NCBI GenBank assembly: GCA_948468385.1
Contig: CAOKHZ010000020.1
Coordinates: forward strand, 17,814-81,813
Length of the DNA: 64,000 nt
Direction of reading: 5' to 3'
DNA from: an uncultured Faecalicatena sp.
Lineage (GTDB): Bacteria > Bacillota > Clostridia > Lachnospirales > Lachnospiraceae
Each line of letters starts with the position of its first letter. Position 1 is the first letter of the stretch. The notes beneath the pieces are model-generated. The model saw only the letters and a program-made list of their open reading frames with translations. It ran no database searches and was not told where the DNA came from. Positions 1,907 through 32,131 of this stretch are shown here, piece by piece. The translations under genes and the position numbers were made by a program.

Positions 1907-4333
1907 TCACAATAGGTTTTCTCCGCCGTGCAACGCGACTTCCCGTCCATCCGGGTACACGAACGTGCCGTTCATTCCTTCCGGCAAAATGACTTTGCCG
2001 CTTAGAGCACCGTCCGCTTTTTGATAAGAAAAGCTTACCATGCCCCTCGGGGTCACCGCTTCCCCTTCCAAATCCGGCAAATACTCCAGATGCGGCTCAA
2101 TCCGCACATGATTCCAGCTTTCATCCGTCGGCCTCACGCCTGAAAATGCCCGGATGAATTCATACAACGGTAACGCGCTCCATGCATGACAGTCGCTTCT
2201 ATTATTTACCGGCTCTTCTGGACAAGCAGTGCAGCCTTGTCCCGGCAATGCGGCCCAGCGCATGATGTTCTCTTCCGTCTCTTCATACACCCCGGCCTTT
2301 TCCAGCGCACGGAACCACTCGTACGCCGTGGAAAAGGAACAACGAATCACGTCCTCTTCCCGCAATGCGTTCTTCAACGCGCGGCGCTGTTTCTCTTCGT
2401 CCCCTATGCCATTTATCACCGCCCAGGCCTGCGCATGCTGACTGTATTGCACGTACTCTGGTCCTTCACGATACATTCCTCTTTTCTCATCCCAACAAGA
2501 TGCTTCCACTAAATCCACGATTTTCTTTCGCCGTGCACGGTACTCCTCGGCCATGCCGTGACGCGCCGCTTTTTCGTTCAACCTCGCGCCGCATTCCAAC
2601 GCGTAAGCATACATCAGATTGATAATCGTGGACGGGCCCTTTCGCACGGCCGACGGAACACCGCCGGTTTCCTTCCATGCCTCCTGCCAGTCGACAAATT
2701 CCCAAAATCCAATTCGTCCTAACAAGCCGTCCTCGCCAATCTTTCTGTCATAATAACCCAAAATGGTATCCACGTCGGGCAGATAACGGCGAACCGTCTC
2801 CAGGTCACCCGTCTGCTCGTAATATTCCAACATCATGTAAATATAATGCAAAGAAAACGTCGAAATCACCTGACAGTACGCCGATGGATATTTCCCATGA
2901 ATCAGGCCGTCCGGAAGCATGGAATAGTGGAAATCCTTCAAGGCCTTTTTCGCCATCCGCACGTCGCCGCTCGCCACATAGGTAAACATCGCCTGCAGCC
3001 TGGTGTCCATCGAAAATTGCATTTGCTCATAATACGGACAATCCATGTACGTTTCCATCATGCAGTTTTCCAGCGTGCGCACGCTCAGTTTCCAGACTTC
3101 CTCCACCCACTCTTTCGAGGATTTTACCCACGACGTCGTCTGCAACGGGTAGCCAGTCTTTCTAAATGTCGGTGCTGCTATTTCCAATGCCTCTCCGGCC
3201 GTCTCCACATGAATCCGCAGAAAACGGAACGTCCGATACCAAAACGGCTCGTAAACAACCGCTTCTCCGCTTAACGTGACAGTATCCGTCAAGCCGACGA
3301 TTTCCCCGTTCTCCACGTCGTCCCTGCGAATTGGCCTGCCCTCGGCGGCCGCCTTCTCATTCACGAACTTCTCAAAATAGGTAAACGAAACGGTACTGCC
3401 TTGTCCACCCGAAAAAGCATAACGCGGATACCCGTTTTTAATCACGCCCGCGTCCAAAATGATGTCCAGGCTTTCATTCTCCGGCACCGTAATCTTCTTT
3501 TCTTCCAGAATCCCGCTTGCCGCCGCATTTCCCTTGCACAATTCTTTCGCAAAACCATCTTCCGTCTCGTACAAGAGCGGAATTTCCCGCTCCTGCATGC
3601 GAAAACGGGGCAAAAGGCCGACCAATTCCCGAAACTCGCTCGCCACCACGGGCTCTAACTGACTTGGCACGCCCCATTCCGCCTGCTGCCCACGCTCTTT
3701 GTTACCACAGTCTTGTCGGCCACGCTCCTTTTGACCATTTACTTCACATTCCTCTTTCGTCAATTCCCAACCGCTTTTTTTCCAATCACACGGGCTATAC
3801 CGAAAGTCGATTTCCTCGCATACAGCTCCCAGATTTTCCGTAATCTGGTTCGACTTCAAATAAAAGCTTTCATCCAAATATACGCTCCAGTCCGCCTTGC
3901 CCGTCGTCACGGTCGCAAGCGTCTTGCCCGCTTCATTTCGAATGTCTCCTTCCACCGCCAGGCGATGCCCGCCGCCAGGCGTGAACACGCCGAAAATGGC
4001 AGCCCGCTCGTCCCACTGCGCCACGGATAAATCCGGATGATTGTACAGAACCTGCACCGCAAACACGTTCTTTCCCACCGTCAAATATTCCGACACGTCC
4101 ACCGTCTCATAATAACAACGATTCAAGTCTCCCTTGCATGGGCCGGACAATACCGGCCGTTCATTAATCCATAAACGATAGCGCGAATTTGCCGTGATAT
4201 CCATCGTCAACCCGGCCTTTTCCGCCAAATCCAACTCACAACGATAGTAGGCGAACCGCCCCGTCAGATCACACTCGCGCCCCCTGCTCTTTTCTGTCAC
4301 TCCAAGCCACATAGCCTCTTTCCACATCATCAT
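1907..4333 (-). CDS. GH78-like alpha-L-rhamnosidase family protein
   Basis: About 808 residues. An N-terminal beta-sandwich region (RLWINERPVL, NPxVQVLYNHP-like) precedes an (alpha/alpha)6 barrel of the Bac_rhamnosid6H type. GH78 enzymes cut terminal alpha-L-rhamnose from pectin side chains and plant glycosides. The catalytic signature here is the variant DCPYYEQMQ, in which the acid Glu is kept but the Arg of the usual DCPxRE is replaced. The GATTIWE motif near the C-terminus of typical members is not seen, so the specificity is uncertain. The start overlaps the upstream GH43 stop as ATGA; three ATGs follow GGAGG at 3, 6 and 9 nt, so the true start is 4333, 4330 or 4327. No signal peptide is visible. 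Confidence 0.78.
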   Translation of the reverse strand: MMMWKEAMWLGVTEKSRGRECDLTGRFAYYRCELDLAEKAGLTMDITANSRYRLWINERPVLSGPCKGDLNRCYYETVDVSEYLTVGKNVFAVQVLYNHPDLSVAQWDERAAIFGVFTPGGGHRLAVEGDIRNEAGKTLATVTTGKADWSVYLDESFYLKSNQITENLGAVCEEIDFRYSPCDWKKSGWELTKEECEVNGQKERGRQDCGNKERGQQAEWGVPSQLEPVVASEFRELVGLLPRFRMQEREIPLLYETEDGFAKELCKGNAAASGILEEKKITVPENESLDIILDAGVIKNGYPRYAFSGGQGSTVSFTYFEKFVNEKAAAEGRPIRRDDVENGEIVGLTDTVTLSGEAVVYEPFWYRTFRFLRIHVETAGEALEIAAPTFRKTGYPLQTTSWVKSSKEWVEEVWKLSVRTLENCMMETYMDCPYYEQMQFSMDTRLQAMFTYVASGDVRMAKKALKDFHYSMLPDGLIHGKYPSAYCQVISTFSLHYIYMMLEYYEQTGDLETVRRYLPDVDTILGYYDRKIGEDGLLGRIGFWEFVDWQEAWKETGGVPSAVRKGPSTIINLMYAYALECGARLNEKAARHGMAEEYRARRKKIVDLVEASCWDEKRGMYREGPEYVQYSQHAQAWAVINGIGDEEKQRRALKNALREEDVIRCSFSTAYEWFRALEKAGVYEETEENIMRWAALPGQGCTACPEEPVNNRSDCHAWSALPLYEFIRAFSGVRPTDESWNHVRIEPHLEYLPDLEGEAVTPRGMVSFSYQKADGALSGKVILPEGMNGTFVYPDGREVALHGGENLL

Positions 4334-29544: not shown

Positions 29545-30240
29545 TTAGTTCTGTCCATAGTATGCGTTCGCACCATGTTTTCTATAATAATGTTTGTCCT
29601 GCAATTCCTGCGGGGCGGGCGCATTTTGCGGATTAATCATCTCGCAGCGAGCCGCCATCTTCGCCACTTCCTCCAAAACGACCGCGTTGTGCACCGCCTC
29701 ATGCGCGTCCTTGCCCCAGGTAAACGGCCCATGGTTCTTGCACAGCACCGCCGGTACCGCCACGTAATCCTTGTTCCTGCGTTCAAATTCATCGGCAATC
29801 AGAACGCCCGTGTTCAGCTCGTACGCCTCGTCAATCTCTTCCTTCGTCAGGTTGCGCACGCACGGAACCTCCCCGTAAATGTAGTCCGCATGGGTGGTGC
29901 CATAGCACGGGATATCCCTTCCCGCCTGCGCCCAACTCGTCGCCCAGGCCGAATGCGTGTGCACGATACCGCCAATATTTGCAAAACGGTTGTAGAGCAC
30001 CGTGTGCGTCGGCGTGTCGGACGACGGGTTATACTTGCCCTCCACCTTGTTGCCCTGCAAATCCACGACCACCATGTCCTCCGGCGTCAGCTTGTCGTAT
30101 TCCACCCCGCTCGGCTTGATGACGAACAGCCCCTTCTCACGGTCGATTCCACTGACATTGCCCCAGGTAAACGTCACCAACCCATGTTTGGGAAGGAGCA
30201 TGTTCGCCTCATATACTTCTTGCTTCAATTGTTCTAACAT
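29545..30240 (-). CDS. araD: L-ribulose-5-phosphate 4-epimerase
   Basis: A 231-residue class II aldolase-fold epimerase that converts L-ribulose 5-phosphate to D-xylulose 5-phosphate, the last step of arabinose use. Metal-binding His are in VHTHSAW (about 95-97) and CKNHGPF (about 170). GGAGG lies 7 nt before the ATG at 30240. It follows a ribulokinase-type gene after a structured 200-nt spacer and precedes lacZ. Confidence 0.95.
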
Positions 30241-30267
30241 AACTTTGCCTCCTTTACTATGAGCACT

Positions 30268-30439
30268 TGCAATGAACACTTGGCGAGGTTTCACACGAGC
30301 TTAGTGTGAATGCACTCCGCACTCCTTGGCGAGGTTCTTTACGAGCCTAGTCGTGCGGAGTTTCCTCTGTTCATGCTTACGTGCGAATGTAGTTACCTGC
30401 AACTTGGCGAGGTTTTTTCGAGCCTAGTGCAGCGTAACT
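30268..30439 (-). ncRNA. Three tandem covarying hairpins in the araB-araD spacer
   Basis: Three hairpins occupy 30268-30314, 30314-30361 and 30391-30439. On the transcribed minus strand each shows ACTA-R-GCTCG, 4-7 variable bases and AACCTCGCCAAG at its tip. The outer stems have different sequences but keep pairing: ACACT/AGTGT; a perfect 9-bp ACTCCGCAC/GTGCGGAGT; AGTTAC/GTAACT plus TGCA/TGCA. Conserved loops with compensating stems mark selection at the RNA level. The CCTC in each loop is complementary to the GGAGG of araD, so translation control is possible but unproven. I do not match it to a named RNA family. Confidence 0.7.
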
Positions 30440-30442
30440 TCC

Positions 30443-32041
30443 TTACATGCACTCCACTGCCGCACGTTCAATTGCCAGTCCTTTTGCGTACCGCGCCATA
30501 AATGCCTCGAATCCTTCCACGTCGGCCGCCACCGGATCCATGCGCTCGCCCTCTTCGCCGTGGAACACCTTCTGTGCCAGATAATCTGCAAGTGATTCAT
30601 CCTCCGCCTTATTCTTCATATAGGCCGCCAACAATGCCATGCCCCACGCGCCGCCTTCCCCGGCCGTCTCCATGACATACACGGGCGTGTCAATCGCCGC
30701 CGCCAAAATACCTTGTCCGACTCCCTTGGTCTTGAACAATCCGCCATGGCCGAGCATCTTGTCCAGCTCTACCTTTTCCTTCTTAATCAGGATGTCCATG
30801 CCCGTCTTTAACGCACCCAGAGACGTGTACAGATGCACGCGCATGAAATTCGCCAGATTCATCTTCGCGTCCGGCGTGCGCACGAACAAGGGACGCCCCT
30901 CGTTAAAGCCGGTCACATGCTCGCCTGAAAAATAATTGTACGCAAGCAATCCGCCGCAATCTTTGTCACCTTCCAATGCTTTGCGGTACAGCGTGCCATA
31001 CAAGGTGTTCATGTCCACTTCCACGCCATAGCTGGTGAGCGCCTCCTTAAACAAGTTCACCCAGGCATTTAAGTCTGACGTACAATTGTTGCAGTGCACC
31101 ATCGCCACCGGGTCGCCCGCCGGGGTCGTCACCATGTCAATTTCCTCATACGCCTTCGTCAGCGGCTTCTCAAGCACCGCCATGGCAAATACACTCGTCC
31201 CGGCCGAGACATTTCCCGTGCGCACCGCCACGCTGTTCGTCGCCGCCATGCCAGTCCCGGCATCGCCCTCCGGCGGACATAAAGGAACCCCCGCCTGCAA
31301 GTCACCGTCCGCATCTAAAACGCACGCGCCCTCTTTGGTAAGCGTCCCCGCCGTCTCACCGGCCACGAGCACCTTCGGCAAAATCTCGCGTAATTTCCAT
31401 CCATACTCCTTGTCCGCCACGAGTTCGTCAAACTGGCCAATCATCCGCTCGTCAAAATCACATTTCGCCGAGTCAATCGGGAACATCCCGGCCGCCTCGC
31501 CGACTCCCATCACCTTCTCGCCCGTCAGCCGCCAGTGAATATAACCGGCCAACGTGGTCAAATAGCTTATGTCCTTTACGTGCTCCTCGCCATTTAAGAT
31601 GGCCTGGTACAAATGTGCCACGCTCCACCGCTGCGGAATGTGAAAGCCAAACAACGCCGACAGCTTCTCGGAGGCCTCCTCGGTCATCGTATTTCTCCAC
31701 GTTCGGAATTCCGCCAAAAGACGGTCTTCCTTGTCAAATGGCAGATATCCGTGCATCATGCCGCTAAATCCAATCGCCCCCAGGCTTGTAAGCGTCACGC
31801 CGTACTGTTCCTTTACGTCTCTTTTCAAGTCCGCGTAACACCCCTTAAGTCCCGTCTCAATGTCTTCCATCGAATACGTCCAGATATTGTTTACCAGACG
31901 GTTCTCCCAATCGTGACTTCCCGTGGCAATCGGCGCGTTGTCCTCGCCAACCAATACGGCCTTAATCCTGGTGGAACCAAACTCGATTCCTAAAACGGCA
32001 CATCCCGCTTGTATCCACTCCGCTGCTTTTACTTTGTCCAT
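30443..32041 (-). CDS. araB: FGGY-family carbohydrate kinase, probable L-ribulokinase
   Basis: A 532-residue two-domain sugar kinase with [14 protein letters not shown] at the N-terminus (phosphate site), [11 protein letters not shown], and a C-terminal [13 protein letters not shown] and [12 protein letters not shown] (ATP site). FGGY kinases use ribulose, xylulose, glycerol and other polyols; the downstream araD makes L-ribulose the likely substrate. The symbol rests on context. GGAGG lies 9 nt upstream of the ATG at 32041. No araA isomerase is in the window, so it must be elsewhere. Confidence 0.8.
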
Positions 32042-32073
32042 ATGTATGAACCTCCCTTCATGCTCTAAAGATA

Positions 32074-32102
32074 ATGATAACATAGGCAAATATTGGACGC
32101 AA
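32074..32102 (-). promoter_or_regulatory. Promoter of the araB-araD-lacZ operon
   Basis: -35 TTGCGT (32097-32102), 17-nt spacer and -10 TATCAT (32074-32079) on the minus strand, about 35 bp upstream of the kinase start codon. No clear AraR operator is recognised. Confidence 0.55.
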
Positions 32103-32131
32103 GGAAATTCTGGCAAAGATTTTCACGAAAT

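Follow-up and report, generated by a model that had tools for sequence, protein, structure and literature searches.

Palindrome-associated transposable elements and other IS200/IS605 derivatives have hairpin ends without inverted repeats and insert beside a short target. The BOX elements of Streptococcus pneumoniae, in the sections of PMC3049150 that describe them, have terminal inverted repeats and target duplications and are over-represented between convergent genes. REP/BIME repeats, in the part of PMC2817692 that deals with them, take alternating orientations and are accompanied by a RAYT gene that has REPs on both sides.

The 64-kb stretch of DNA analysed here (the window) holds one copy of an element that, judged from its sequence, appears REP-, BOX- or MITE-like in kind. 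Like BOX as characterised in those sections (PMC3049150), it is a short interspersed composite of exchangeable modules in variable number, with predicted stem-loops, no protein gene and copies that differ between relatives; unlike BOX, neither type of repeat stands out in it, and its main class of copies lies at Shine-Dalgarno (SD) sequences in the sense orientation. Set beside the element by description only, BOX would be the nearest known kind in modular build (PMC3049150, same sections), and the REP/RAYT repeats would be nearest in hairpin style, as far as that part of PMC2817692 portrays them. With REP/BIME (PMC2817692, same part) it shares short imperfect hairpins in many extragenic, clustered copies, whereas its tandem and composite units run head to tail in sense and do not alternate in orientation, and no Y1 gene was found in its own genome. 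It resembles bacterial MITEs, by the definition given in that portion of PMC3049150, in being small, non-coding, folded and multi-copy; unlike them, it shows only a weak sign of target duplication and, in the window copy, no terminal inverted repeat beyond chance. A literature search, with most subscription journals outside its scope, returned no paper on this hairpin repeat or on SD-directed insertion. We consider it probable that the element is a non-autonomous interspersed hairpin repeat, without a protein gene, that enters host SDs in the sense orientation and leaves them rebuilt.

Hairpin array in the spacer upstream of araD

The earlier note had pointed to three consecutive hairpins in this spacer, each with AACCTCGCCAAG and GCTCG and with outer stems that differ in sequence and still pair, and the window sequence confirms both the array (minus strand, 30439 to 30268) and the stems. 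Hairpin A (30391..30439; this and all following features are on the minus strand) has the outer stem AGTTAC/GTAACT and the core tip CTAGGCTCG...CCTCGCCAAG. Hairpin B (30314..30361) has the outer stem ACTCCGCAC/GTGCGGAGT and the same core tip, and hairpin C (30276..30307) has ACACT/AGTGT, in place of which the predicted fold prefers an alternative stem, TTCACAC/GTGTGAA, from 30310. The repeated unit extends beyond these hairpins up to the SD itself (30440 to 30251), giving an element copy of 190 bp with the modules A-B-C (30251..30440). Near its end lies the right-end motif GTGCTCATAG (30257-30266), followed by the putatively rebuilt SD TAAAGGAGG (30248..30256) ahead of the start codon of araD. 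On its left the copy abuts TAAGG (30441..30445), which is the kinase stop codon TAA plus GG and would be the left half of the interrupted SD. The downstream gene, araD (L-ribulose-5-phosphate 4-epimerase, 29545..30240), is firmly identified. For the upstream carbohydrate kinase gene (30443..32116, start codon as mechanically listed) the match to XylB falls short of the curated cut-off, which makes araB a probable name for it.

The predicted fold of the 206-nt spacer has an energy of -67.9 kcal/mol against a mean of -52.1 for shuffled sequences (z -3.69; 0 of 200 shuffles were as good). In this predicted fold GCAC after hairpin A (30381..30384) pairs with the GTGC that starts the right-end motif before the araD SD (30263..30266), forming a neck helix that encloses B and C; the same neck occurs in the S-type copies described below. 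The earlier note could match the array to no named RNA family, and Rfam gave no match for the window region or for 17 fetched loci; the sole entry listed for the window, with E 3.3, is located outside this region and misses its cut-off by a wide margin.

A dispersed repeat with exchangeable modules

A covariance model of the core was built from 28 of 30 listed cores. In the window it gave three matches, which are hairpins A, B and C, and in the window's own 4.25 Mb genome (G000) it gave 75 matches at E<=0.1, in 55 clusters. The 12-mer AACCTCGCCAAG alone had 20 exact matches in that genome, against 2 for a reversed-pattern control. Across 61 genomes searched, the model was positive in 12/12 genomes of the genus, with 2 to 97 matches each (97 in G008 and 10 in G007), in 5/25 genomes of other genera of the same family and in 0/24 genomes of other families of the order. 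The exact core pattern occurs in at least 116 stretches of GTDB contigs, whose origin we sorted by title. Among the 116 listed, the 87 from Lachnospiraceae or similar gave 112 model matches at E<=0.01, and the 29 from unrelated taxa gave 10 at E<=1, two of them at <=0.01; since the pattern itself had pre-selected all of these stretches, nothing but the contrast in match strength is informative. The core loci are spread across Lachnospiraceae. On these sequence comparisons, the array before araD is a single copy belonging to a short, protein-free repeat dispersed over the genome and its relatives.

Most copies share a common order: a first hairpin (H1), an RYATTC-like linker, a second hairpin (H2), GTGYTCATAG (which is GTGCTCATAG in the window copy) and the SD. 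H1 has two forms, A-type (AGTTAC or a variant of it) and B-type (ACTCCGC or a variant of it), and H2 is either a hairpin with the core, as in C, or one that is short and variable, named S. UAR...YAA with an A.A mismatch is common to all hairpins, and the consensus of the module tip is CUARGCUCG...CUCGCYAAG. The arrangements found are A-S, B-S, A-B-C, A with B-C in its tip, and tandem units, the last with a unit length of about 99 to 104 nt.

Covariation was measured by pair counts with shuffled and slid controls, in place of R-scape. The S hairpin was aligned from 40 of 44 listed copies, leaving out three that were shifted by one base and one near-duplicate. In its 38 distinct rows, 96.1% of cells pair (83.0% when shuffled), 79 cells carry compensated double changes (22.9 expected by shuffling) and the covariation score is 0.474 (at most 0.088 with slid partners); as the copies are related, these figures are not probabilities. 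Further pair types in S showed no excess (18, against 18.0 in shuffles). The core stem varies little, with double changes in three of six pairs (5 cells). The mismatches of the neck and B stems comprise 18 G-T and 0 A-C, plus 21 of other kinds; this excess of G-T over A-C hints that the sense strand folds, as RNA or as single-stranded DNA. DNA-level palindrome correction is less likely as the sole cause of covariation in these stems; in the S stem, with 3 G-T and 4 A-C mismatches, it may be the sole cause. Selection on RNA structure, which the earlier note had proposed, is thus supported by the covariation of the S hairpin, more weakly by that of the core, and by the 18 to 0 ratio in the neck and B stems.

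Phages and plasmids were rejected as vehicles of spread: the A-module pattern was found in 0 stretches of viral contigs, and the A-S unit had no match in plasmids or phages. The bare core pattern matches 42 viral stretches (IMG/VR) exactly, some of which may be chance matches. Three other settings of the core were seen. In Dorea sp. D27, tRNA genes of an rRNA-tRNA region flank a pair of cores (locus L113, 3569-3656). At four loci in relatives (L077, L092, L132 and L160) the core tips a much longer imperfect inverted repeat, similar to palindromic miniature elements. At one locus (L017, about 3060-3130), viewed by eye only, a core pair apparently lies inside a broken-looking coding sequence.

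Placement at Shine-Dalgarno sequences and states of orthologous sites

The right-end motif is present in 35 clusters of the own genome, and for 32 of these an ATG ORF was counted no more than 45 nt away on the same strand, in a tally made by hand from the ORF listing with the start codons of C53 and C6:18034 corrected against the sequence. The three exceptions are C27 (at a contig end), C29:27176 and C9:84666 (ATG at 147). The remaining 20 clusters include four before an ATG with an SD (C23:35280, C4:172199, C5:56238 and C5:66167) as well as copies away from SDs, namely a AACATCCACTCAA-core type and 46-nt arrays, and most cores in other genera are likewise not at SDs.

Phase and orientation are near-constant in the SD-associated class. 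In 66 left ends from G000, G001 and G008, a start codon follows CATAG by 12 to 22 nt in 53, and TAAGG comes directly after CATAG in 35. Left flanks with a terminal GG number 51 of the 66 and are not GTAG; REP has a GT(A/G)G-type head before its hairpin. These counts keep a few false pattern hits (such as L011 and L205) and are biased, as rows from G001 and G008 were taken next to the starts of genes. The own rows alone gave a start codon in 27/31 and a GG left flank in 22/31. The same phase was seen in G006, G007 and G011 at the loci viewed (L056, L057, L059 and L353), and the right ends of L058 (G009) and L060 (G002) were unlike those of other copies. The genes downstream of the copies are unrelated in function. 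The earlier note had named random scatter without covariation as what would speak against it; the unrelated genes fit such scatter, but the copies are placed at SDs and their stems covary. A second type, AACATCCACTCAA-core-TTTCGGGATGGGCT... (L179, L180, L181, L182 and L210), was seen off SDs and in other orientations relative to genes.

To compare orthologous sites, we sought the orthologues of 36 element-following genes of the own genome with composite protein queries and fetched their upstream regions, with 11 congeners covered for the first 8 genes and two, G001 and G008, for the remaining 28; site states were assigned by pattern. Both empty and filled states, the mark of a mobile element, were found. 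In G001, 25 sites comprised 11 empty, 9 filled, 3 remnant and 2 with a core only (its GlgP was dropped from the count, since the contig starts inside the gene). In G008, 30 sites comprised 10 empty, 18 filled and 2 remnant. In nine further congeners 52 of 53 sites were empty, and the sole remnant (dnaB of G003) is probably a chance match in coding sequence. That the more distant congeners are empty suggests gain rather than loss.

The araD site is the cleanest pair. It reads TGTAAGG-AGGCAAAGTT-ATG in the sister genome G001 and TGTAAGG-190 bp-AGGCAAAGTT-ATG in the window, so the copy is absent at the same place in G001; the junction is TGTAAGG-AGGCAAAG in G001 and TGTAAGG + 190 bp + AGGCAAAG in the window, and the two are 98% identical over the araD piece compared. 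The araD site lacked the element in 10 of the 11 congeners viewed, some of which (araD of G005 and G009; 73% identity) may not be strict orthologues. Similar pairs with more divergent flanks were found at dnaB, C31_35459, C6_130575, C9_6901 and C9_45287, and remnants were found in relatives at C7_142095 and C6_38937.

Modules are also exchanged and nested at single sites. C51_636 has A-B-C in G000 and G008 and A-S in G001, with the same flanks. C35_17123 has B-S in G000 and G008 and a cut-down A in G001. At C23_45197, G001 has A-S and G000 has a B-C block inside the tip of A with the S stem unchanged; G008 and G000 differ in a similar way at C9_45287.

Two further observations concern site states. 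The same site has two units in G007 (L056) and one in G006 (L057), which indicates that whole units are gained or lost in tandem. L019, at a contig end of the own genome, apparently has the same left flank as L054 of G001; beyond it the G001 sequence continues to an SD and ATG, and the sequence that closes the own contig is unrelated, which has the look of an insertion.

Proposed insertion mechanism and regulatory readings

We suggest that the repeat consists of exchangeable hairpin modules ending in GTGCTCATAG-TAAGG, and that a copy would enter a host SD at RAGG|AGG, reading in sense. Upstream of the inserted copy, the first half of the host SD would be left in place, and because the element brings TAAGG, its own TAAGG would join the host AGG to form an SD again at the normal distance from the start codon. 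Such rebuilding may be why these insertions survive. The process would be a transposition-like insertion aimed at SDs and not random insertion followed by selection, and may involve an enzyme that recognises the sense-strand hairpin, as RNA or as top-strand single-stranded DNA. Phase and orientation argue for targeting over selection after random insertion; tight operons leave little free but the SD region, so selection alone could explain part of the position bias.

Target duplication gave a weak signal (1.75 against 1.54 matching bases, permutation p 0.043, at 20 sites of the own genome selected because both sides have GG). For a terminal inverted repeat, the best result in the window copy was 7/10 matching bases, which 198 of 500 shuffles reached. 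With a weak target duplication and no terminal inverted repeat, the movement looks more like single-strand, IS200/IS605-style transfer than like that of a classical MITE. The element shares with palindrome-associated and other IS200/IS605 derivatives the hairpin ends without inverted repeats and the short target alongside; unlike them, it has no matching transposase or parent element that we found.

Searches for an enzyme bear on a REP- or PATE-like origin as well, in which a Y1 transposase would move an IS200/IS605-type derivative with hairpin ends, no inverted repeats, a TAAGG target on the left and TAAGG at the right end. Consistent with this are the lack of a terminal inverted repeat, the left flank of TAAGG or similar together with the right-end TAAGG, and the mismatches in the hairpins. 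However, PF01797 (Y1 transposase) had 0 matches in the own genome at E<=1e-5, only one partial match in G001 and three partial matches in G008, despite its 97 elements; G007 had 11 Y1 matches with 10 element matches. Beside cores in other genera, no transposase was found among the 25 commonest of 144 Pfam families in 107 flanking ORFs (110 picked, with 3 long ones left out). We regard a Y1-moved derivative as quite improbable. PF00078 (reverse transcriptase) and PF01548 (IS110) each had 0 matches in the own genome at the same threshold, with 5 and 6 matches, respectively, in G008. Y1 transposase, reverse transcriptase and IS110 were all rejected as the mobiliser, since the own genome had no match and the counts did not track copy number; the own genome is about 94% complete, so absence there is no proof. 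The box sequences of attC-like recombination sites presumably do not fit the element.

A more specific form of SD-directed insertion is offered only tentatively. The element would be SD-homing, with a sense hairpin array that is recognised at its CUAR...YAAG tip and that an undescribed enzyme places in RAGG|AGG, perhaps via RNA; the half-SD would heal the site, and the tips would accept a B-C sub-element. If SD-directed insertion holds, gene start sites would be a landing platform for the element: as each insertion restores an SD, operons could take up copies and still be expressed. The structured leaders that precede many genes in common gut bacteria would then be insertion products and not selected regulators, and only a test would justify treating them as regulatory devices. 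The empty, filled, nested and remnant sites in relatives make the hunt for a hairpin-recognising enzyme practicable.

The earlier note had suggested that CCTC in the hairpin tips pairs with the araD SD and so tunes translation. CCTC is complementary to GAGG, but it is present in every core, the same before unrelated genes and away from genes and SDs, and the araD SD is unpaired in the minimum-energy fold of the spacer. The araD site, moreover, is empty in all but one of the congeners viewed, and the neighbouring genes have no common function. Across copies, the SD had a mean predicted unpaired probability of 0.59 when the leader was native and 0.48 when it was shuffled, and the SD was more open than shuffled in 49 of 68 rows (some sites entered twice), with the opposite or a tie in 19; the structure thus appears not to hide the SD. 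Given the genome-wide distribution, the empty sites and the predicted folding, araD-specific regulation was rejected, and tuning of araD through CCTC is highly improbable.

A broader regulatory reading is a dispersed cis-acting RNA, in which the CUAR...YAAG tip is the binding site of a host protein or RNase that controls stability, processing or translation of the downstream gene, the leaders having spread by duplication and recombination and been kept by selection. The strong sense-strand covariation, the sense orientation at a fixed distance from the start codon, the several sites common to G000, G001 and G008 and a structure that leaves the SD open all fit such an RNA. It accords less well with downstream genes that are unrelated, sites mostly empty in most congeners, module make-up that varies at one site and copies that lie away from start codons or in other orientations. 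Occurrence before rplF and infA is patchy as well: in other genera some genomes have cores ahead of these genes, inconsistently, in 4/21 rplF rows and 1/14 infA rows, and three of these five rows (L088, L096 and L172) were fetched because they bear cores. A conserved rplF or infA leader was rejected on these counts. Tandem cores before rplF or infA in a few genomes are reminiscent of ribosomal-protein leader RNAs, from which the element differs in having no Rfam match and in not being conserved at these genes. We consider a dispersed cis-acting RNA unlikely as the origin of the array; the element may still have a role in mRNA stability or processing.

Of the 21 rplF rows, 10 (L088, L096, L172, L367, L370, L373, L378, L379, L380 and L384) have a different, conserved motif of the form ACTGAAAACAGAGC...GCTCYGAAAATYTAAGTTAGGAGG immediately ahead of rplF, with or without core hairpins; it is possibly a separate rplF leader.
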